NCBI GenBank assembly: GCA_037139415.1
Contig: JBAXGN010000041.1
Span: 1-45,971, forward strand
DNA length: 45,971 bases
Reading direction: 5' to 3'
Source of the DNA: Verrucomicrobiota bacterium
GTDB lineage: Bacteria > Verrucomicrobiota > Verrucomicrobiia > Limisphaerales > Fontisphaeraceae
In this document: positions 9,298 to 19,984 of the stretch, piece after piece
Numbering within the stretch: position 1 is the stretch's first letter
Layout of the letters: each line of letters opens with the position of its first letter
Notes under the pieces: generated by a model
Databases searched by the model: none
Told to the model about the DNA's origin: nothing
What the model saw: only the letters and a program-made list of their open reading frames with translations
Position numbers and translations under genes: made by a program

Positions 9298-12200
9298 CTA
9301 TGGCTTTTTTTCCGGAGTGTTCACCAGCTTGTAGCGCAGTTTCACACCGTAACCTTTCTGTCCATCGGTGTGGAAGCCGAGTTCACTTTCGACGATATCG
9401 AGCAGTTGCAGGATGCCGATCTCGCCGCGTGCGGTTTTGAAGTAGGCGGTCAGCGGCAAATCTTTTCGAGTCGGCTGCAGGATGCCGACAATCCAGGTCG
9501 TGTCCTTCAAGTTGTCAACGACGCCTGTTTCGGTTGATTCCAGCCATTTCGATGGATCGGTCTGCAGGAAGAGGCAGCCTTCGCCGGCAAATTGCAACCC
9601 ATCTGCGAGTCCGAACGCCTTCGCATCTGCGCCACCCGCCGCATCAATGATCTTCTGATCTTCGGCTGCCTGTTCTTTCGTTGTGCCCGGCCCGTGCCCG
9701 TCAACGAAAAGCCTCCCGCTGCGAAATTGAAACGCATGTCCAAGGCACGGCGCACTGAACGGCACGACGCGCTCCACCACCGGGCCGAAGGATAGCTTGG
9801 CATCGGCTTTTGCGCTCGGTGCGGCGATGAATTTGGCCAGGGCTTCCGGCTCGCGAGCGATGGCGAGTGGCGGAAACAGCGCAAGCCTTTCGACCGAGCC
9901 GTCATCGCGAATCACGAAGACGCGGCCCTCGCGCAGATCGTATTGTTTGCCGTTGATGTGCAGATAATCCTGCATCACCGAATCGCGCTGATAGCCAAAG
10001 GTGCGACCGTTCTCCAATTGGATGTTGTGATCCTCTTTCCACGCCCGTGGATTGGTGGTGCTGGAATCCAAACCGCCACCGGAGTTGAGATGATTCCCCT
10101 GGTAGAATATCGCATAGTGAACGTCCACGCTGTCGTCGTGCAGCAGCACCGTCTGATCGTTGTGGCTGATATGACTGCCATTGGGTTGTATGCTTCGTTT
10201 GGCAGGTTCGCCGTTGCTGACTTCAAACGCGATGACGAGAAACTTCGCGGAGCCATCCTTGCGGGAGAACGGCAGGAAGAACGTTCGCGCCCGACCCGGT
10301 TGCGGCGCATTGCCCTCCCAGACGATCAACGCATTTTGATACGCGCAGTTGAGGGAGTGGGTGGGGTGAGATTCGGTTCGCAATTGGAGCACTCCGTTGC
10401 GTCTTTGAACCCCAAGAATTCCACTCCCACCACCGGTGCCGAAGAACTCGCCCAGGCGGCTGTAGCTCCACGAAACAGCCATGCCCGGCCATGGATAAAA
10501 CCCGTAACGGTTATCCACCAGCAACCACGGTGGTTTGGAGCAGTCCAGCAGCAGTTTGCCGAGCACCTCCCCGTCAATCTCGGTCGTCTGCGAAACCATG
10601 TTCACCGGCGAGCCGATCTGCGCAGGCCGGTTCGGAATCTCCAGTTCGCGGTCCATCATTTGACCAGGCTTGCGCGTTGTCTCCGGTACCAGCGTGTCCA
10701 CCGAGCTGGCCTCTGCCTCGAACACCCGATAGCGAACCTCGCCTTTCTCCTCGGCCGCATCCGGGAGGTAGTGCTGCCATGGCGCGAGCGTGGCAATGGT
10801 CAACCAGACGGCAGTTTGAATAGCCCCGAACCATAGCGCCCACTTTCCGCATGGCGACTGGCGCACCGGGATGGCCATCCCCACCGCCGCAAGGGCTGTG
10901 ACGAGGATGGACCAGACCAACCACACAGGCGGATGCGGCAGCATGAGCCATGTTGCGGCCGCAAAGATTCCGCTCCCCCACGCAGTGCAGCAAGCAGCGG
11001 TCGCCAGCGGTGTATTCGGCACGACTGCGGGTGGAGAAACCTCCGGCGCTGCGGACGGAGCGCTGCCGACCGGCTTGTTCGCCGCGCGCCAAGCCCAGCG
11101 GATGATGAGGTAGTCCACGACCAGCGCCGTGACTACGGTCGCCACGGTTGCCCATTCGCGGACGAGAGCCGGGGCGATGTCGGGCTGATAGATTTCCAGA
11201 TAACGACTCATGTCGAGCGACGACCCCATCAGCATCTTGATAACGATGGTCCAGAGCCACAACAGGACCGCATCCAGCGCCAGCAGCGGGAACAGCAGTC
11301 CGTCGAAAACGGCCAGCCCCAGCCCGTAAAGCTGTCCTGCCGATCGGCGGATTTGTGCGACGGCGATCCACCCGAGAATCGTCGTGCCCAGAAAGCCTGA
11401 TAATCCCAACAAATCCTGCTGCAATAAATGCATCGTCCACCAGACCGGCGAAGCTGTCAGCGAAGCGAGTGAAACGAATTTCGCCATGAGCATTTGGGTG
11501 ACAAACAGACAAGGAAACGCCGCCCATACCGCCCCTACGATGGCGGTGCGCGAGAAGCGCGACGGTTGCGCCGGGCTGGCTCTTGGTCCGGCAGGTGGGG
11601 TTTTCCCGGCTTCCTTGTCGTCGAGAGACGGGAGCTGTTCAATCGGCCTTCTACAATCGCGGACAATGCTCGTGACCAGCATTCCGAGGACAAATACATT
11701 AATCCATACCACCCAGCCGGAGATGTGCTCCCCCGAGAAAGCCGCCCCGCCGAAAAACACCGCCATCACTCCCATGAACAGGATTCCGTTCGAGGCCGCA
11801 CCGGCCCAATGAATGACACGTCGCCCGTTGCGGACGCCGACTATTGGCGAAAAAAGCAGCAACTTCGATATCAGGTCCGATTGCTCTCGGACGGGCGCGC
11901 CGCCCGTCGTGGCCGGGGTTTCGGGAGAACTTGCCAGCGGCAGCGTTGAGGCAATCGTCTCCACCATCGTCTTCACGTCGCTGACATGCTGGTAACGCAG
12001 TCCCGGTTGTTGCTCCAACGCGCGCAACACGACGGCATCGAGGCGCACGTCTATCTGCACTTTGTGCGACGGCGCTTCGAGCGGTCTGCCCGGCAGTTCG
12101 CCCGTGAGCATCTGGTAGAACACCACGCCCAGCGCGTAAATATCCGCGCGATGATCCACTTCCCCTGGAGCAGCGATCTGCTCAGGGGACATATACTGGG

Positions 12201-12927
12201 GTGTGCCCATGACCGCATTGCTGATTGCAGATTGCGGATTGCGGATTGAAGCAGCGTCGGCCGTCGGCTCGTCAGCATCTTTTTGGCCGATCAACTTTGC
12301 CAGGCCAAAATCCGCGACCTTTACCCGGCCCCGACGGTCAATGAGGATGTTCTCGGGCTTGATGTCTCGATGGACGATGCCCTGGTCGTGGGCAAATTGG
12401 AGGGCATCGCAAATCTGTGGCACAATGGCCAGGGCTTCGCGGGCGGAAACCCGGCCCGTTTGCATCAATTGGCGAAGGTTTACACCGTCCACGAATTCCA
12501 TCAGGAAATAGAACTGACCATTGGTCTCGCCAAATTCGTAGAGGGTGACAATACCGGGGTGGTTGAGTTGCGCCAGGGCCTGGGCTTCGCGGGCGAAGCG
12601 TTCCGCAAATGAAGCATCATCGGCAACGCCGAGGGGAAGAATTTTGAGCGCGACAATGCGATTGAGCTTCTTTTGCCGGGCTTTATAGACGGCCCCCATG
12701 CCGCCCTTGCCGATGAGTTCGAGAACTTCGAGTTGCGGAAAGCGGGGCGCGAGGGTCTCAACGGAAGGCGGCACGAATGCGGGCCGGGCAGCGCCGATTT
12801 CCGTGTCCGGCCCAATATCCGCGTTTGATCCGAGGCCGACTTTGATGAGGCATTCGGGGCACAACCCGCCCGGCGCGTTGGCCGGAAGCGCTTTGCCGCA
12901 CGTTGAACATTTAGGTTGGGTGTCCAT
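9298..12927 (-). CDS. Giant transmembrane Ser/Thr protein kinase with zinc ribbon (module 1)
   Basis: A 1209-residue Hanks-type kinase. Residues 7-26 form a zinc ribbon (CSTC...CPEC). The kinase domain, about 70-335, has the glycine loop GKGGMG at 73-78, Lys95, Glu114, HRD at 186-188, DFG at 207-209 and GTPQYMSPE at 241-249, so it should be active. The activation segment carries a 9-bp repeat insert (see 12216-12249). Roughly eight or nine transmembrane helices follow between about 370 and 735, then an approximately 470-residue extracytoplasmic domain. The C-terminus (GEIGILQLLDI...KLRYKLV) shares the GxxxILQ...K[LI]RYKL motif with the module-2 kinase. It sits 69 bp downstream of the sigma factor gene. 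Inferred role: sensing outside, phosphorylating the sigma factor or another protein inside. Confidence 0.93.
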   Translation of the reverse strand: MDTQPKCSTCGKALPANAPGGLCPECLIKVGLGSNADIGPDTEIGAARPAFVPPSVETLAPRFPQLEVLELIGKGGMGAVYKARQKKLNRIVALKILPLGVADDASFAERFAREAQALAQLNHPGIVTLYEFGETNGQFYFLMEFVDGVNLRQLMQTGRVSAREALAIVPQICDALQFAHDQGIVHRDIKPENILIDRRGRVKVADFGLAKLIGQKDADEPTADAASIRNPQSAISNAVMGTPQYMSPEQIAAPGEVDHRADIYALGVVFYQMLTGELPGRPLEAPSHKVQIDVRLDAVVLRALEQQPGLRYQHVSDVKTMVETIASTLPLASSPETPATTGGAPVREQSDLISKLLLFSPIVGVRNGRRVIHWAGAASNGILFMGVMAVFFGGAAFSGEHISGWVVWINVFVLGMLVTSIVRDCRRPIEQLPSLDDKEAGKTPPAGPRASPAQPSRFSRTAIVGAVWAAFPCLFVTQMLMAKFVSLASLTASPVWWTMHLLQQDLLGLSGFLGTTILGWIAVAQIRRSAGQLYGLGLAVFDGLLFPLLALDAVLLWLWTIVIKMLMGSSLDMSRYLEIYQPDIAPALVREWATVATVVTALVVDYLIIRWAWRAANKPVGSAPSAAPEVSPPAVVPNTPLATAACCTAWGSGIFAAATWLMLPHPPVWLVWSILVTALAAVGMAIPVRQSPCGKWALWFGAIQTAVWLTIATLAPWQHYLPDAAEEKGEVRYRVFEAEASSVDTLVPETTRKPGQMMDRELEIPNRPAQIGSPVNMVSQTTEIDGEVLGKLLLDCSKPPWLLVDNRYGFYPWPGMAVSWSYSRLGEFFGTGGGSGILGVQRRNGVLQLRTESHPTHSLNCAYQNALIVWEGNAPQPGRARTFFLPFSRKDGSAKFLVIAFEVSNGEPAKRSIQPNGSHISHNDQTVLLHDDSVDVHYAIFYQGNHLNSGGGLDSSTTNPRAWKEDHNIQLENGRTFGYQRDSVMQDYLHINGKQYDLREGRVFVIRDDGSVERLALFPPLAIAREPEALAKFIAAPSAKADAKLSFGPVVERVVPFSAPCLGHAFQFRSGRLFVDGHGPGTTKEQAAEDQKIIDAAGGADAKAFGLADGLQFAGEGCLFLQTDPSKWLESTETGVVDNLKDTTWIVGILQPTRKDLPLTAYFKTARGEIGILQLLDIVESELGFHTDGQKGYGVKLRYKLVNTPEKKP
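12216..12249. repeat. GATTGCGGA 9-bp tandem repeat inside the kinase activation segment
   Basis: Four imperfect tandem units of GATTGCNGA read in frame on the minus strand as SIRNPQSAISN, between DFG and GTPQYM of kinase 1. The module-2 kinase has an unrelated sequence at this place. Confidence 0.75.
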
Positions 12928-13884: not shown

Positions 13885-14031
13885 TTAGTGCCGCGAATGG
13901 CGTAACCTCTCCGCCACCCGGTCGCGTGTATCGGCGGTGTCCAGGGGCAGTTGGAAATGGGGAAGGTCGCCGGCACGCTGCGGCGCGTTTGCCGGGTGCC
14001 ATTCCGCAAGCAGGAAGGGTTTGAACCCAAC
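13885..14031 (-). pseudogene. Fragment of an ECF sigma factor gene
   Basis: The frame reads LLAEWHPANAPQRAGDLPHF then QLPLDTADTRD. This parallels LVAEWRKANAQKRVGNRPHF then QLPLDTAETRY in the intact sigma factor at 12997-13749. Only about 45 codons of the region 2-to-linker part remain, without regions 2 proper or 4. DNA similarity is obvious between 13937-14030 and 13368-13461. It is a decayed partial duplicate just upstream of the intact gene. Confidence 0.75.
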
Positions 14032-14057
14032 TGCCGGATGCGCGGCAGCGATGCTCC

Positions 14058-14804
14058 CTACAGGCACATGTGGCTCACCGGGTCGCTCCAATCGCTGTAG
14101 CCGGTCGAGCCGCCCACGGCGCGCACTTGCAGGCTGTACGTGCCGCCGGGGGTCAGTTGGCTGACGATCATGGCGCGCGAGTTGGTGAACATGCCGGCGG
14201 GTTGCCACGGCCCCAAGGTGCCACCCGTGCCGACCACGGCATAACGCACCTCGTAGCATTTGGCGTTGGCGATGGCTTTGATCTTCACGATCAGTTGGCC
14301 GGTGCCGCCGTTGTCCACGCGCACTTGGGTGGGTTTGGATAGGGGCGTCGAGGGATGGTGTCCGCTCACCGCTTCAAAGCCGCTGCTGAGCAGGGTGGCC
14401 AGGTCGTCGTTGTGATGTTCTTGCACGTGTCCAGCGTTTTTGCGCAACAAGGCCACCAGGTCGTCGCGTTTGTTGTTTTTATCGGCGGTGGCCTCTTTGC
14501 CGCCGACGGCCTGCGCGGCCAGGGCGTTGATGAAAGCGGTCAAAGCCGCTGTGAAGTCCACCAGGGTCACCGGCGGGTTGGGGAACGCCGCGTTCCCATA
14601 GAACTGGGCTTTGACGCGCTCGGCCAATTCCGTCAGGCTCTGGTCCGGCGCGTTGGTGAAGCCCAGCATTACACGTAGATGAGGCATTTTGGGTTTCCTT
14701 TGGGTTTCGGGCACGTTCCCGTCCCACACGAGGGCCGGGTCATTCCAGCAAAACGGCCTGCCATCCGGGTAATGGCCGTTCCAGGTAATGGGGGTAGGTG
14801 CCAT
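14058..14804 (-). CDS. Fibronectin type III domain protein
   Basis: A 248-residue protein with no signal peptide. Residues 40-140 form a helical region (LTELAERVKAQFYGN, LVALLRKNAGHVQEHHNDDLATLLSSGF). Residues 155-248 form one FN3 beta-sandwich (PTQVRVDNGGTGQLIVK...YEVRYAVVG...SRAMIVSQLTPGGTYSLQVRAVGG) ending SDWSDPVSHM. The protein type is common in Verrucomicrobiota and often occurs in several copies per genome; its function is unknown. The upstream DNA is the 21-bp repeat array. Its first 45 codons overlap the end of the repeat-containing open frame. Confidence 0.82.
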   Translation of the reverse strand: MAPTPITWNGHYPDGRPFCWNDPALVWDGNVPETQRKPKMPHLRVMLGFTNAPDQSLTELAERVKAQFYGNAAFPNPPVTLVDFTAALTAFINALAAQAVGGKEATADKNNKRDDLVALLRKNAGHVQEHHNDDLATLLSSGFEAVSGHHPSTPLSKPTQVRVDNGGTGQLIVKIKAIANAKCYEVRYAVVGTGGTLGPWQPAGMFTNSRAMIVSQLTPGGTYSLQVRAVGGSTGYSDWSDPVSHMCL

Positions 14805-15364
14805 AGTATTTGGTTAACTTTTGACTTTAACGTTGAAGCGTGGGAAGGAGTGGAAATCGCGTCAAACCGGCCTAACTGACTCAAAAACAAGACCTTCTGC
14901 GTTCGGCAGGCGACTCTTTCCGGTTCGGACAGACTTTTGTCCGTCACGGAAACAGTTCTGTCCGTTACGGAAAGGCTTTTATCCGTCGTGGAGAGAGTCT
15001 TGTCCGCGACGCAAAGACTTTTGTTTGTAACGCCGAGAGTTCTCTCCGTCGCGCCGAGACTTTTGTCCGTAGTGGAAAGAGTTCTCTCCGGCGCGGACAG
15101 GCTTCTCCCCGTCATCCAGAGAGTTTTGTCCATCATGGACAGACTTCTCTCCGCCGTGGAAAGACTCGTTTCCGTAACGCCGAGAGTTCTGTCCGCCACG
15201 GAAAGACTTTGGTCCGCCACCGACAAAGTCTGCTCGCCAGCAGAGCGACGTTGCTCGCGGGCGGGGCAGGTTGCCGCATCACGGGAAAAGGCCGTTTCCG
15301 CGGCCCCAAGGCTGGCCGAAGAAAGACACCGCAGGTTTTCCGTGCTGGCGGAGCGTGTTTGCAT
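14669..15364 (-). CDS. Possible heptapeptide-repeat protein spanning the 21-bp array
   Basis: An open frame from ATG 15364 (or GTG 15427) through the tandem array. It gives about 15 heptads of consensus L-S-x-x-[DE]-[KR]-[ST], such as LSVTDKS and LSTTDKS. The substitutions are conservative at positions 5-7 (D/E, K/R, S/T), which favours real coding. Against it: the opposite strand is also open through the array, with the equivalent heptad RLLSVTE; the frame runs 136 bp into the FN3 gene; and there is no signal peptide or recognised domain. I treat it as possible only. Confidence 0.3.
   Translation of the reverse strand: MQTRSASTENLRCLSSASLGAAETAFSRDAATCPAREQRRSAGEQTLSVADQSLSVADRTLGVTETSLSTAERSLSMMDKTLWMTGRSLSAPERTLSTTDKSLGATERTLGVTNKSLCVADKTLSTTDKSLSVTDRTVSVTDKSLSEPERVACRTQKVLFLSQLGRFDAISTPSHASTLKSKVNQILWHLPPLPGTAITRMAGRFAGMTRPSCGTGTCPKPKGNPKCLIYV
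14910..15245. repeat. Tandem array of sixteen 21-bp units with internal dyad
   Basis: Sixteen consecutive 21-bp units with plus-strand consensus AGAsTTyTGTCCGTNACGGAA. Odd and even units alternate AGACT/AGAGT, so the true period is about 42 bp. The unit core TCCGTNACGGA is a dyad, perfect in the units at 14931 and 14952 and retained with paired changes in the unit at 15120 (TCCATCATGGA). The end units are the most diverged. The array lies between an XRE regulator gene and an FN3-protein gene. Confidence 0.92.
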
Positions 15365-15408
15365 GTCGGCGGGCAGTACACCAAGTTCCGCGCCCGCGCG
15401 CCATGCAA

Positions 15409-15678
15409 CTATAGTTGCGCCCGGCACTCGGCCTCCAACACCAACCGGCTCAGCCGCATGTCCAACGCCCGGCTGATCCGCGCCGCCGTATCAATCGTTG
15501 GAATCCGCTGCCCCGATTCCACGAAGCTCAACATCTGCCGCGAAAGCCGCGTCCGCTCCGCGAGTTGGTTCAGCGACAGCCCCGCCCGCTCGCGCCGCTG
15601 CCGGATGACCGCCGCCAAAGCGTCGCACACCGGTTCGAGCGACGTGCGCGGCAACGGTTGTGGATGCGGCGCGGGCAT
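15409..15678 (-). CDS. XRE-family helix-turn-helix regulator
   Basis: About 89 residues from ATG 15678; an upstream in-frame ATG at 15726 would overlap the lipoprotein gene. The HTH lies at about residues 20-75 (VIRQRRERAGLSLNQLAERT then RLSRQMLSFVESGQRIPTID), the standard Cro/C1-type fold. It is a DNA-binding regulator with no sensor domain. It is the last gene of a minus-strand row from the module-2 kinase and lies next to the 21-bp dyad array, which it could bind (speculative). A broken copy of its 5' part lies at 20975-21016. Confidence 0.82.
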   Translation of the reverse strand: MPAPHPQPLPRTSLEPVCDALAAVIRQRRERAGLSLNQLAERTRLSRQMLSFVESGQRIPTIDTAARISRALDMRLSRLVLEAECRAQL

Positions 15679-15686
15679 GGAAATTC

Positions 15687-16055
15687 TTAGAAGCGGACGT
15701 TCTTGCCGCAAAATGAGGTATGCCAAACAGTGTTCGAGTTTTTCAGAAACCAGATTTCGCGCGTGCCGTGTTTGTCGGGATAGTTCCAGATTTCGATCTT
15801 CACGCCTTTGGGCAGCCTATCTTCATCTGCAAAATGAGTCCCAAAATATGGCTCGCCGCTGTCGAACCAATTGGTCCTGCTCGCTGCGTCGAGTTTGGCG
15901 ACGACTTGTTCGCGGGTCATGCCGATTTTCACGCGACGGTCGTTATCAACAGAGACATTGTTTTCCGGCGAGAACTGCTGGGAAATCTTCCCGCAGCCGG
16001 CAACAAACAGCAGCGTAGCAAACAACGCCGATACGTATTGATTGGTGAACCTCAT
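15687..16055 (-). CDS. Small lipoprotein, SmpA/BamE-like
   Basis: A 122-residue protein with a lipoprotein signal (LFATLLFVAGC, lipobox cysteine at about 21). The following KIGMTREQVVAKLDAASRTN is the pattern of SmpA/OmlA (BamE-like) lipoproteins, in which a short helix follows G-M-T-x-x-x-V. It is probably attached to the outer membrane. Its ATG overlaps the stop of the preceding gene (16052-16055), so the two are translationally coupled. It belongs to the row of exported proteins behind the module-2 kinase. Confidence 0.75.
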   Translation of the reverse strand: MRFTNQYVSALFATLLFVAGCGKISQQFSPENNVSVDNDRRVKIGMTREQVVAKLDAASRTNWFDSGEPYFGTHFADEDRLPKGVKIEIWNYPDKHGTREIWFLKNSNTVWHTSFCGKNVRF

Positions 16056-16627: not shown

Positions 16628-19600
16628 TTACGGCTGGCCACTTTCAGGCGACTTCCCGTTGGCATTCAATGCCTGCGCAATCGCCCCGGCCTCGGCGGAG
16701 GTGAAGTTGCCAGTGATTTGGGCGCGACCACCGGTAATGGTGTCGCGAATCGTCGCCGCGGAGAGCACCTTGCCGTCGAAAACGATGGCGAGCCGTCTGT
16801 TGATGCTCGCGCCGGTGATGTCGGCAAACCGTTTTCCACCGTCGGTGGTGAACTTCACCTCAATAACCGGGCCTTGGGCGGTGTTGGTCACGGCGGCACT
16901 GGCGACGGCGGATTCGTCGAGCAGCACGTCATGGCGCAGTCGGAATTGCTCTTTACCATCGCGGCTGAAGATTGCGTCCGCGCTTTCTTTGGCGTCGGCA
17001 ACCAGCCGGAATTGCAGCCGTGGACTTGGACGCAGTCCGATGCGATGCACCGCATCCTCCCACACGACCAGCGGGCTGCCGGTATAGGTGATTTCTTTGA
17101 CGACCGTCTTGGCCGTTGGCGTGTCATGTGGGTAAATCCGGGTAAAGCGATAAACATCGCCTTGCTCGGTCGTTCGCAGCCACGACCAACTCACATCGGA
17201 GACAGCGCCAGGATGACCGCACGTAACTTTGCCAGTCGGTCCGGCGTCACCAACCAGCCCATCGTTCGGGCCGGAGCCTGTGAAGTTGATGAAGCTCATC
17301 ACGGCCGAAAACTGGCGCGGATCGGATTGACTTGCGCTTGGCACTGCTGGTGACGGGTTGGCGTTCTCGTCGGTGCCTTGCGGCAACGGCTTGATGCCTT
17401 CGATCTCGCCGTCAGGGAGAAACGAAATGCGGATGCCACAACGGATGTGCGCAAACTCGCACGGCACAGTGACGCACCGCGTGTTTCCGAGCCCCGGCTC
17501 GGCTAACGGCGTCCCGTCAACACGTACGAAGTTGTTCTGCCCGTCCGTCAGGGACTGCCACCATTGCCGCACCTGCTCTTCGGGCCAGCGATTGCGCAAC
17601 GACGGCGCTAACCGCGCCATCACGTCGGCAGTATTGCCGTCCGCGAAATCCTGAATCGTTGCCAGCGCGCGCTTCACCAACTCGCGTTCCGGCATGTTCG
17701 GAGTGGTCGCTGTAATCTGACCGGTCAGTTTGTAGCGAATCTTCAGTGTCTGCGGCGGGACGCCAATGCCCGACCATTGCAGGATGCTCAGCGCGCCCTT
17801 GCGTGTGCGGAAGGCGAGCATGTTGCGGTACGGTTGGTCATATCCAAATGCGCAGCCCACGCTGGTCACGTAGCGTCCGTCCTTCTCCATCGGCGCGTCC
17901 AGCGACGCGGCGGCCTCCGCCGGCGTGATCGTGCCGAACTGCTCGGGCTGGGAGAAATCCCGGATGCTCCGGGTCCTGTTCCCGAGCGAGTTGAAACACC
18001 AGATGCCGTTCGTCTGAAACCGGAACACGAAATCCACCTGGTTTTCGGCCACCCACTGCCTGAGCCGGTCGGTGATCTCAACGTGGCTGTGCTCCGTTCC
18101 CGTGGGCACGCCGTCTTCCTTGGCAATCCAGGCGCAGCCGTGTGGCGTCACCGGAAACGGCGGCTTCAACGGCACCTGCCGTTCGACACTGAAGAAGACA
18201 AGCCCATGCTCGTCGGCGTCGCGCGGGCCTAGTTCTCGTTCGCTGGCTGGACCGAACGATGTCGCGCTGCCGTCGGTGATGGCATGGGTCGCGTGCGGAA
18301 GCCAACTGTGCGTTGTTTCGGCCATTTGTCGGCCAGCCCGCGCTGCCGCCATGTAGCCCGACCATAGAACGGCAAGGACCAGGAGCAGCCAGAGAACGAA
18401 CGTGGCTAGAACCACCCGAGCGACACGGCCCTTTCTCAGGCACATTACGGCGCCGCCGATGCTGAAGAGTCCTAGGCTGATCGCCAGGGCCACCACCTTG
18501 TCCGGGCGAAACAGGTTCTCGCTCAGGGGCGCTGCAAAGAGAATCGCTGCAATGTCGTGCGAGAGTAATGTCCAGGCGACGGCGAGTAGCAGAATGATCC
18601 CACCCGCCACATGTCTGACACCGGCCAGCCCGCGCCCATTATTTCCGGATCTTTCGCCAGGTTCGCCCGGTTTTTTGCCTTTTTCCAATGATTGGAAACT
18701 TGCGCCACCGTCTTTTCCAATGATTGGAACTTGCGGCGCATCCAAGTCCACCAGCCGGTCCAACGGTGTTCTCCGCGCCCCAATCAAAATAATACCGGTG
18801 GTCATGAGCGCATACATCGCGCCCATGACCAAGGCTCGCATGTCCATCGGAGCGCCAATCATCCGGCAGAGCAGCGCGCCTCCAGTAACAATGATGGCAA
18901 AGACGAGCAGAAACACGCGCGCGACACCGGACCAGTTGATGACCGCCTTGCCGCCGCGCCGGCCGACGACCATGTTGCGCAACCGCACATGCAGCGATTT
19001 GATTACTGACTTCTGACTGCTGTCTTCTGTCTTCACTCCGGCCGGCGTGCTCACAATCGTCTCAACCTGCGTTCGCATCTCGCCAGCGGTCTGGTAGCGC
19101 AGTTCGGGTTTGCTCTCAAGCGCGCGCAGGACGATTTCATCCAGCCGCACATCAATGACGACCCTTTTCGACGGCGCTTCGAGCGGTTTGCCGGGCAGTT
19201 CACCGGTGAGCAGTTCGTAGAGCACCACGCCCAGCGAATAGATGTCGGCGCGATGATCGGTGCGGTGACGGTCCTTTTGCTCGGGCGCCATGTATTGTGG
19301 CGTGCCGGCGGGTTGGCTGTCCACGAAGCTGGCATCCGGGCTTTCCGCGTTCAGCATCTTGGCGACGCCGAAGTCGGCAATCATCACGCGACCGGTCTTG
19401 TCCAGCAGCAGGTTCTCCGGCTTGATGTCGCGGTGAACGATGCCGTGCTCGTGGGCGTATTGGAGCGCCTCGCAGACGGGTGGCACGATAGCTAGGGCCT
19501 GCTCCGGCGTGAACCGGCCCGCCTTCATCGCCTGCCGCAGGTTGACGCCGTCCACGAACTCCATGAGCAGGTAGTAGAACCCGCCGGCCTGGCCGAAATC

Positions 19601-19984
19601 GTAGATGGTGACAATGTTGGGGTGATTCAGCGCGGCGAGCGCCTGGGCTTCTCGGGTGAACCGTTCGGCGAACTGGGGGTCGCCCACACGCTCAGGGGCG
19701 AGGAGCTTGAGCGCAACGAGACGGTTGAGACTTTTCTGCCGCGCCTTATAGACTACCCCCATGCCGCCGCGCCCCAGGCATTCGAGAATATCAAGCTGGG
19801 GGAAGTGCGGGGCGAGTTCGGTCAGCGCGAGCGTCTGTTGTGGCGAAGAGGAATCGGAGTTCGTCTGGGTCGGCACCATCGCCTCCGCCATCAGACAACG
19901 GGGGCACAAACCATCGGTCATGGCGGCCGGCAGGGCCACGCCACACTTGGGGCAGGAGTTTAATGACTTTGTTGACTCGTTCAT
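16628..19984 (-). CDS. Giant transmembrane Ser/Thr kinase with zinc ribbon and SecD-P1-like C-terminus (module 2)
   Basis: An 1118-residue protein. The zinc ribbon is at residues 11-30 (CPKC...CPRC). The kinase domain has GRGGMG at 71-76, Lys93, HRD at 184-186, DFG at 204-206 and GTPQYMAPE at 227-235, all intact. Five or six transmembrane helices follow between about 350 and 550. The extracytoplasmic part includes a YxLxFRTRKGALSILQ...LKIRYKL stretch like that of kinase 1. The last 90 residues (LLDESAVASAAVTNTAQGP, RRLAIVFDGKVLSAATIRD, ITGGRAQITGNFTSAEA) match the P1 head of SecD. It is 48 bp downstream of the sigma factor gene. A 273-bp part of the kinase region is repeated in the broken kinase at 20857-22212. 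Confidence 0.93.
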   Translation of the reverse strand: MNESTKSLNSCPKCGVALPAAMTDGLCPRCLMAEAMVPTQTNSDSSSPQQTLALTELAPHFPQLDILECLGRGGMGVVYKARQKSLNRLVALKLLAPERVGDPQFAERFTREAQALAALNHPNIVTIYDFGQAGGFYYLLMEFVDGVNLRQAMKAGRFTPEQALAIVPPVCEALQYAHEHGIVHRDIKPENLLLDKTGRVMIADFGVAKMLNAESPDASFVDSQPAGTPQYMAPEQKDRHRTDHRADIYSLGVVLYELLTGELPGKPLEAPSKRVVIDVRLDEIVLRALESKPELRYQTAGEMRTQVETIVSTPAGVKTEDSSQKSVIKSLHVRLRNMVVGRRGGKAVINWSGVARVFLLVFAIIVTGGALLCRMIGAPMDMRALVMGAMYALMTTGIILIGARRTPLDRLVDLDAPQVPIIGKDGGASFQSLEKGKKPGEPGERSGNNGRGLAGVRHVAGGIILLLAVAWTLLSHDIAAILFAAPLSENLFRPDKVVALAISLGLFSIGGAVMCLRKGRVARVVLATFVLWLLLVLAVLWSGYMAAARAGRQMAETTHSWLPHATHAITDGSATSFGPASERELGPRDADEHGLVFFSVERQVPLKPPFPVTPHGCAWIAKEDGVPTGTEHSHVEITDRLRQWVAENQVDFVFRFQTNGIWCFNSLGNRTRSIRDFSQPEQFGTITPAEAAASLDAPMEKDGRYVTSVGCAFGYDQPYRNMLAFRTRKGALSILQWSGIGVPPQTLKIRYKLTGQITATTPNMPERELVKRALATIQDFADGNTADVMARLAPSLRNRWPEEQVRQWWQSLTDGQNNFVRVDGTPLAEPGLGNTRCVTVPCEFAHIRCGIRISFLPDGEIEGIKPLPQGTDENANPSPAVPSASQSDPRQFSAVMSFINFTGSGPNDGLVGDAGPTGKVTCGHPGAVSDVSWSWLRTTEQGDVYRFTRIYPHDTPTAKTVVKEITYTGSPLVVWEDAVHRIGLRPSPRLQFRLVADAKESADAIFSRDGKEQFRLRHDVLLDESAVASAAVTNTAQGPVIEVKFTTDGGKRFADITGASINRRLAIVFDGKVLSAATIRDTITGGRAQITGNFTSAEAGAIAQALNANGKSPESGQP
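18682..18729. repeat. Two copies of the palindrome TTCCAATGATTGGAA inside the kinase gene
   Basis: TTTCCAATGATTGGAAA at 18682-18698 and TTCCAATGATTGGAA at 18715-18729 have 7-8 base arms and a central G, and lie 32 bp apart. They are read in frame as PIIGK and FQSLEK in the linker between transmembrane segments of kinase 2. Confidence 0.8.
19047..19319. repeat. Direct repeat, copy 1 (kinase segment)
   Basis: About 92% identical by eye to 21731-22003 (offset 2684 bp). It encodes the stretch from AGTPQYMAPEQ to the end of the kinase fold in the intact module-2 kinase. Confidence 0.85.

Follow-up and report, generated by a model that had tools for sequence, protein, structure and literature searches.

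A two-turn tandem array upstream of FN3-family genes in Verrucomicrobiota and its possible role as a helically phased operator

Introduction

Two turns of B-DNA span about 21 bp, and plasmid iterons are direct repeats of about this two-turn length whose sequence varies by replicon. REP and BIME elements carry a GTAG or CGTC tag at one end and are linked with Y1 transposases. At the ptx promoter of Bordetella, six BvgA dimers occupy the same face of the DNA upstream of the promoter, at a spacing of 22 bp (two turns); the BvgA arrays comprise three to six sites and have one known regulator (PMC7250471). BrickBuilt of Porphyromonas gingivalis is a multicopy intergenic minisatellite with 23-nt units that has been reported with promoter elements; it is a single repeat of a single species and lies inside a MITE whose ends are small inverted repeats (PMC4596501).

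Here, a 21-bp tandem array is described from the genome of a Verrucomicrobiota bacterium (7.9 Mb in 378 contigs). The window, i.e., the whole stretch of DNA that was analysed, is 45,971 nucleotides long and contains the following features around the array.

14058 to 14804, minus strand: FN3-family gene, 248 aa from the first ATG, with a second in-frame ATG at 14688
14805 to 14909, minus strand: stretch between the array and the FN3 start codon, a candidate promoter region
14910 to 15245, no strand assigned: 21-bp array in the bounds originally proposed, of which the core (14931-15224) holds about 14 good units
14931 to 15224, no strand assigned: core units, with a plus-strand consensus near AGA(C/G)TTTTGTCCGTCACGGAA
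15409 to 15726, minus strand: XRE/HTH_3 gene adjoining the array, given as its longest open reading frame; the true start may be lower

Like the BvgA arrays at Pptx and Pfha (PMC7250471), the array places putative sites two turns apart upstream of a gene, but the FN3-linked arrays have 5-25 similar 21-bp units whose sequence differs by gene subfamily. Whether they are of the BvgA kind would depend on the binding protein. BrickBuilt, a minisatellite of similar unit length, appears to be the closest published case among the matches listed (PMC4596501). Unlike this single repeat, the FN3 arrays combine many unit sequences with one period, one protein family, and many genera, and the units differ even among loci of one genome, where a BrickBuilt-like MITE would share its unit. 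Short palindromes in multiple copies are also typical of REP/BIME, and eight Y1_Tnp matches are present in the genome holding the window; the units of the FN3 arrays, however, run head-to-tail at a fixed 21 bp and no unit is common to all. With plasmid iterons the arrays share direct repeats of about two turns and a variable sequence, whereas no replication gene was noticed beside them and the FN3 protein of the window was not found in the plasmid set searched. No description of such arrays was found among the literature matches listed (titles and abstract starts).

The array in the window

The original prediction of a 21-bp array at this place holds. Identity at lag 21 was 0.623 over 252 bp, far above 1000 first-order Markov shuffles of positions 14000-16000 (mean 0.322, maximum 0.397), and the neighbouring lags were at background (0.329 at lag 20 and 0.302 at lag 22). 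TRF agrees, reporting a period of 21 bp at 14926-15220 with 14 copies and 63% matches, and at a loose threshold the periodic region extends over about 14880-15280. Sixteen units had been counted; about 14 of these are good, while the first and the sixteenth are degenerate by eye. The core consensus forms an imperfect dyad (CGGA....TCCG) spanning about 18 bp, with a short variable spacer, and its dyad score was reached by none of 300 column permutations. A CRISPR was rejected, as the units are continuous head-to-tail and no unique spacers separate near-identical repeats. The array has no match in Rfam at the gathering threshold, in agreement with the earlier impression, which had brought no known family to mind.

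It had further been proposed that units alternate almost without fail between AGACT and AGAGT and that the array grew by copying of 42-bp dimers. The alternation is real: starting with unit 2 it holds at 13 of 14 steps, the sole break being at units 12/13. It is confined to one unit column, and a general 42-bp super-period was not confirmed. When the units were aligned one by one, even-lag pairs (0.611) were no more similar than odd-lag pairs (0.610; permutation p=0.43), which is the outcome named beforehand as speaking against dimers; without the alternating column the values were 0.618 and 0.623 (p=0.65). Growth via 42-bp dimers is thus not supported at the window locus. Since the best identity over 252 bp rises from lag 21 to lag 63 (0.663) and lag 42 (0.687), and TRF gives further rows of 42 bp (14915-15022, 2.6 copies, 73%) and 63 bp (15036-15209, 2.8 copies, 72%, the top score for the array), a weak or local higher-order periodicity may nevertheless be present. 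Across the array class the dimer idea fares better: a 42-bp super-period is clear in several sister arrays, with lag 42/lag 21 identities of 0.98/0.73 (L203), 0.93/0.73 (L180 and L182), 0.92/0.77 (L162), and 0.86/0.56 (L214).

The setting between an XRE gene (HTH_3 match, E 1.1e-14) and an FN3 gene (fn3 match at residues 156-244 with E 2.6e-5 and 24.8 bits, the Pfam cut-off being 25 bits) was also recovered. Because both genes are on the minus strand, where the order is XRE gene, array, FN3 gene, the array lies upstream of the FN3 gene. The XRE neighbour was rejected as a common regulator, since fewer than three of the 34 loci compared share a homologue. The stretch from 14067 to 14907, which covers the FN3 gene and the DNA before the array, is 73% identical to a paralogue in the same genome (C90); positions 14805-14909 possibly are the promoter region.

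The FN3 protein begins with a W-rich leader, continues with a helical part whose helices fall within residues 48-140, and has one FN3 domain. An AlphaFold2 model built on 45 sequences had a mean pLDDT of 83 and a pTM of 0.49, the first 40 residues being poor. In a fold search, the recognised proteins among the best 50 of 1859 PDB matches were FN3-containing proteins, mostly single FN3 domains, and the viral list gave FN3 and tail-type proteins; no DNA-binding fold was seen among these PDB matches (best 50 of 1859) and the viral matches listed. A W/Y-rich leader (MAPTPLTWNGTYPDG..) in frame before the FN3 domain, as at 14691-14804 of the window, was present in about 14 of the 26 FN3 loci viewed and absent in the rest (e.g., L159 and L168). 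Two large Ser/Thr kinases flank the region on the minus strand (16628-19984 and 9298-12927), the former with a C-terminal SecDF P1-head domain.

Linkage to FN3 genes across genomes

The original prediction had proposed a search upstream of FN3 genes in related genomes. The search found 73 FN3 loci, mostly Verrucomicrobiota by bin label, of which 62 remained after removal of seven partial matches (L222-L225 and L227-L229) and four loci with less than 250 bp upstream. An array was called where a 21-family period (lags 20-22, 41-43, and 62-64) reached at least 0.60 within 1 kb upstream. Such arrays, often with a different unit sequence, were present at 44 of the 62 loci (loci of one bin not being independent) and absent from 18, compared with 4 of 364 control tiles from the same loci (matches in L188, L193, L217, and L219). 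A conservative count of 41/62 leaves out L158, L176, and L188 as possible multiples of 7- or 8-bp repeats. The best period in array loci was 21 (12 loci), 42 (15), 63 (8), 41 (3), 43 (1), 62 (1), 14 (2), or 16 (2). The isolate Luteolibacter pohnpeiensis (L209) has an array at its FN3 locus; in Luteolibacter marinus (L193) the first kilobase before the FN3 gene is free of arrays, but a 42-bp array, which is the control match of this locus, follows at 1-2 kb upstream. Five array loci come from two bins labelled Acidobacteria (L183; L185, L189, L199, and L207). Bins titled Klebsiella pneumoniae (L201), which is probably a mislabel, and Akkermansia muciniphila (L218) also carry the FN3 family.

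In the genome holding the window, an array (at least 0.60) accompanies 11 of the 14 FN3 genes; of the three others, two have less than 400 bp upstream. Seven relatives of the same order had an array at 14 of 22 FN3 loci, with one miss at a locus with just 18 bp upstream. Among genomes chosen regardless of arrays (G272, G051, G156, and G281), 5 of 13 FN3 loci had one (3/10 in G272), a count that leaves out six same-order loci picked for their arrays (three in G018 and one each in G004, G022, and G038), a 44/22-bp array about 1 kb upstream at L141 (G272), and the partial, unscored L150 (G228). In G002, a member of the same family with no FN3 match at 1e-5, 400 kb contained six periodic stretches, none of period 21; two belong to the 21 family, one of 62 bp and one of 42 bp, the latter open in all six frames and reading as a Lys/Ala/Glu repeat. 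When 34 loci were compared over 2-12 kb of DNA, FN3 was the only gene family seen in most of them.

Period, symmetry, and unit sequence

The median array holds 12 units (range 5-25). From its end to the start of the aligned protein domain the median distance is 219 bp, and the start codon follows the array by roughly 80-200 bp, according to whether the leader is present. Dyad symmetry was assessed in 57 arrays, i.e., 58 mostly picked for visible periodicity minus L155 (63-bp period), which failed; with L158, L173, L176, and L214 among them being short-period or low-complexity stretches, and with permuted columns that ignore the kinship of arrays, the mean dyad score was 0.418 against 0.353 (sd 0.0035). 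Taken singly, 29 of the 57 arrays were symmetric at p<=0.01, and no dyad was present in four arrays of the genome holding the window (C60, C185, C139, and C52; p 0.16-0.61). In an earlier arm test, the arms of one unit seemed to match each other (0.657 against 0.625 when shuffled), but this unit-level symmetry was rejected as it disappeared against neighbouring units: pairing within a unit's own dyad was 0.725 and with the neighbouring unit's arm 0.722. The symmetry therefore belongs to the consensus and not to single units.

In 51 arrays, namely the 57 without L158, L173, L176, L207, L214, and one more, similarity of the units follows that of the proteins (Mantel r 0.592; the highest value in 2000 permutations was 0.308). 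Mean motif similarity was 0.59 at 60-70% protein identity and 0.30-0.31 below 30%, and it exceeds background from about 45% identity upward. The motif of the window is found again, with a similarity of 0.69-0.83, next to the FN3 proteins of L162, L174, and L171, whose identity is 54-64%. In other pairs the motif switches at about 70% protein identity while the period is kept (L172/L157, 0.32; L180/L172, 0.34; L199/L189, 0.34; L189/L185, 0.35), and the more distant FN3 genes of the genome holding the window have very different units at the same 21 bp; its C60/C185 pair has 0.77 protein identity and a motif similarity of only 0.40. Spacing is the most conserved trait of the arrays. The periods of 41, 43, and 62 bp in a few arrays keep the helical phase and not the reading frame. 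Tandem arrays are usually compared by sequence; in this case it is the spacing that is conserved and tied to one little-described protein family, which the arrays follow across many genera.

A possible helically phased operator array

The reading that we tentatively favour, at somewhat less than even chances, takes the array as non-coding DNA that serves the downstream FN3 gene as a set of helically phased operators. Each 21-bp unit would present one dyad-symmetric site over two turns of B-DNA. A DNA-binding protein could then line up as 5-25 adjacent dimers along the same helix face, shortly before the gene begins, and these would jointly switch or tune FN3 transcription. Recombination or slippage would multiply or remove units and change their number, and the spacing would be kept because two turns hold the sites in register. 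We infer this mechanism, including protein binding, cooperativity, and the effect on transcription, from three features that are typical of operators: a site spacing of about two turns, dyad sites (singly significant in about half of the arrays), and the upstream position at most FN3 loci. The operator reading is also favoured by the link to FN3 genes, by unit motifs that follow protein similarity, by the non-coding character of the arrays, and by periods of 41, 43, and 62 bp that hold the helical phase. BvgA is a working precedent for such geometry, and the array may work like the BvgA case. That units of differing sequence share one spacing suggests a DNA platform for proteins and not a chance repeat.

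Several observations stand against an operator. No candidate binding-protein gene was seen in most of the 34 loci compared, and in some loci the FN3 gene is followed by a small collagen-like gene; not every FN3 subfamily has arrays (as in G272 and at the array-free loci above); the symmetry is that of the consensus and not of single units; and there are motif switches, dyad-free arrays, and arrays without a listed FN3 match.

The putative binding protein could be encoded by the host; a bolder option is the FN3 protein itself. In the bolder version, which we regard as unlikely, each helical-plus-FN3 protein would have its own two-turn dyad array as an address, with the period inherited and the sequence rewritten, and the array would be read by the helical N-terminal part of the FN3 protein or by a partner with co-varying specificity. 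If this were true, protein and private DNA lattice would form a self-contained duplicating module. If the arrays are operators in the general sense, their runs of up to about 25 sites would be natural systems for studying cooperative binding along one DNA face, and they could help to reveal what the FN3 family does. With Luteolibacter pohnpeiensis as a cultured carrier, the operator idea is testable.

Alternative explanations

The main rival of the operator reading is a minisatellite, neutral or selfish, that is carried along with the FN3 gene, its 21 bp being ancestral or set by amplification and not functional; we consider this somewhat less likely than an operator. In its favour, the FN3 paralogues C90 and C58 of the genome holding the window, whose arrays have units resembling GGACAAGGTCTTGTCC, are 93.9% identical over a 966-column piece and have about 12 and 5 units, respectively; they are a recent duplicate of array and gene as a block with an altered array length. 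The near-complete switches of unit sequence at an unchanged period fit as well, as does the range of array quality from perfect (L172, 1.00) to worn (window, 0.62). Arrays without a recognised FN3 gene point in the same direction. A 1.16-Mb sample of this genome (58 pieces of 20 kb) contained six 21-family arrays at five sites, with an additional array on C4 that reads as a coding Lys/Ala/Glu repeat. One precedes a gene on C22 that starts with a related leader; the body of this gene lacks a Pfam match, and its likeness to the FN3 family is by eye only; C10 holds a copy of this module in which the start of the leader is kept and the gene body lost. For the arrays on C10, C21, C36, and C40, the last of which sits between convergent ORFs, the own-genome search listed no FN3 match. 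On C20, which was examined owing to an earlier match, a 2592-aa ORF has another array about 400 bp before it, again with no FN3 match listed. Arrays are hence rare in this genome, yet not exclusive to FN3 genes. Against a minisatellite stand the window motif, which is kept at 54-64% FN3 identity, where silent sites are presumably saturated, the dyads far above the permutation null, and the retention of the array in 41-44 of the 62 loci. Furthermore, if the arrays were neutral, the constancy of 21 bp despite changing sequence would need another explanation of what sets the length.

Two side observations concern the same genome. The module copies at C22:5882-6174 (L231) and C10:21434-21949 (L259) mix two unit types, one containing TTATTGGGTCCAATAA and the other GGGCATAATA. 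The contig ends C26, C83, and C277 carry arrays with GGACAAGGTCTTGTCC-like units, so that the assembly may break at arrays of this kind.

A recombination or mobility site, at which a recombinase would use the array or an edge dyad and move array and gene as a cassette, is improbable. It would explain the patchy, multicopy distribution of the FN3 family and, in two duplicated pairs (C90/C58 and L151/L152), the abrupt 3' end of the copied module at the stop codon of FN3; the upstream edges of both pairs lie by eye at GACAA..TTGTC dyads. Other pairs, however, have other edges (downstream in L178/L186, upstream in L231/L259 and L182/L186), and the edges of the two duplicated modules have by eye no terminal inverted repeats. 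No recombinase family recurs beside the arrays in the 34 loci compared, and carriage by phages, plasmids, or viruses was rejected, as the respective sets searched gave no match.

Still less probable is an RNA element, in which the array would be the leader of the FN3 messenger and act via hairpins. As FN3-sense RNA, the array folds better than 100 of 100 shuffles (z -4.97), but a low folding energy is expected of any dyad. It was outweighed by the lack of a wobble bias among off-consensus pairs (273 G-U, 246 A-C) and by absent unit-level covariation; in addition, the dyad centres are tight for loops and Rfam gave no match at the gathering threshold. Similarly, it is very unlikely that the array is an intrinsic curvature or supercoiling element that needs no sequence-specific protein: its period does equal two helical turns, but the motif is similar within subfamilies, and the units show no 10.5-bp A/T phasing (mean autocorrelation -0.09 at lag 10), so that phased A-tracts were rejected as absent on average. 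A coding heptapeptide repeat (21 bp as seven codons) has next to no probability, although open frames of 252 aa (minus strand) and 179 aa (plus strand) cross the array, as conservation ignores codon positions (spread 0.087 against 0.104 by chance, p<0.05 in 2 of 45 arrays), open frames are distributed over all six frames and lacking altogether in 5 of 45 arrays, the 252-aa frame meets a stop in its C90 match, and periods of 41, 43, and 62 bp break the frame; the 252-aa frame also has an NCBIfam match, but at 20.2 bits where the cut-off is 1113, and this was taken as a repeat artefact.

Other repeats and genes near FN3 loci

A small second gene follows FN3 at L040:2151, L046:1116, L143:4150, L145:3829, and L153:4055, with starts such as MAFDPNLPANGSPLSSAEMRAQLNGL, and has a collagen-like stretch in two of the four cases scanned. 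Tandem repeats of 7 or 8 bp occur near some arrays upstream of FN3 (L152/L170, L158, L173, and L188; CGCGCAAC in L152). Downstream of the FN3 gene, a Verrucomicrobiaceae bin (L140, about 1020-1230) has 10-bp tandem repeats (ACCGTCAACC), and a weaker 11-bp period is found in L139.
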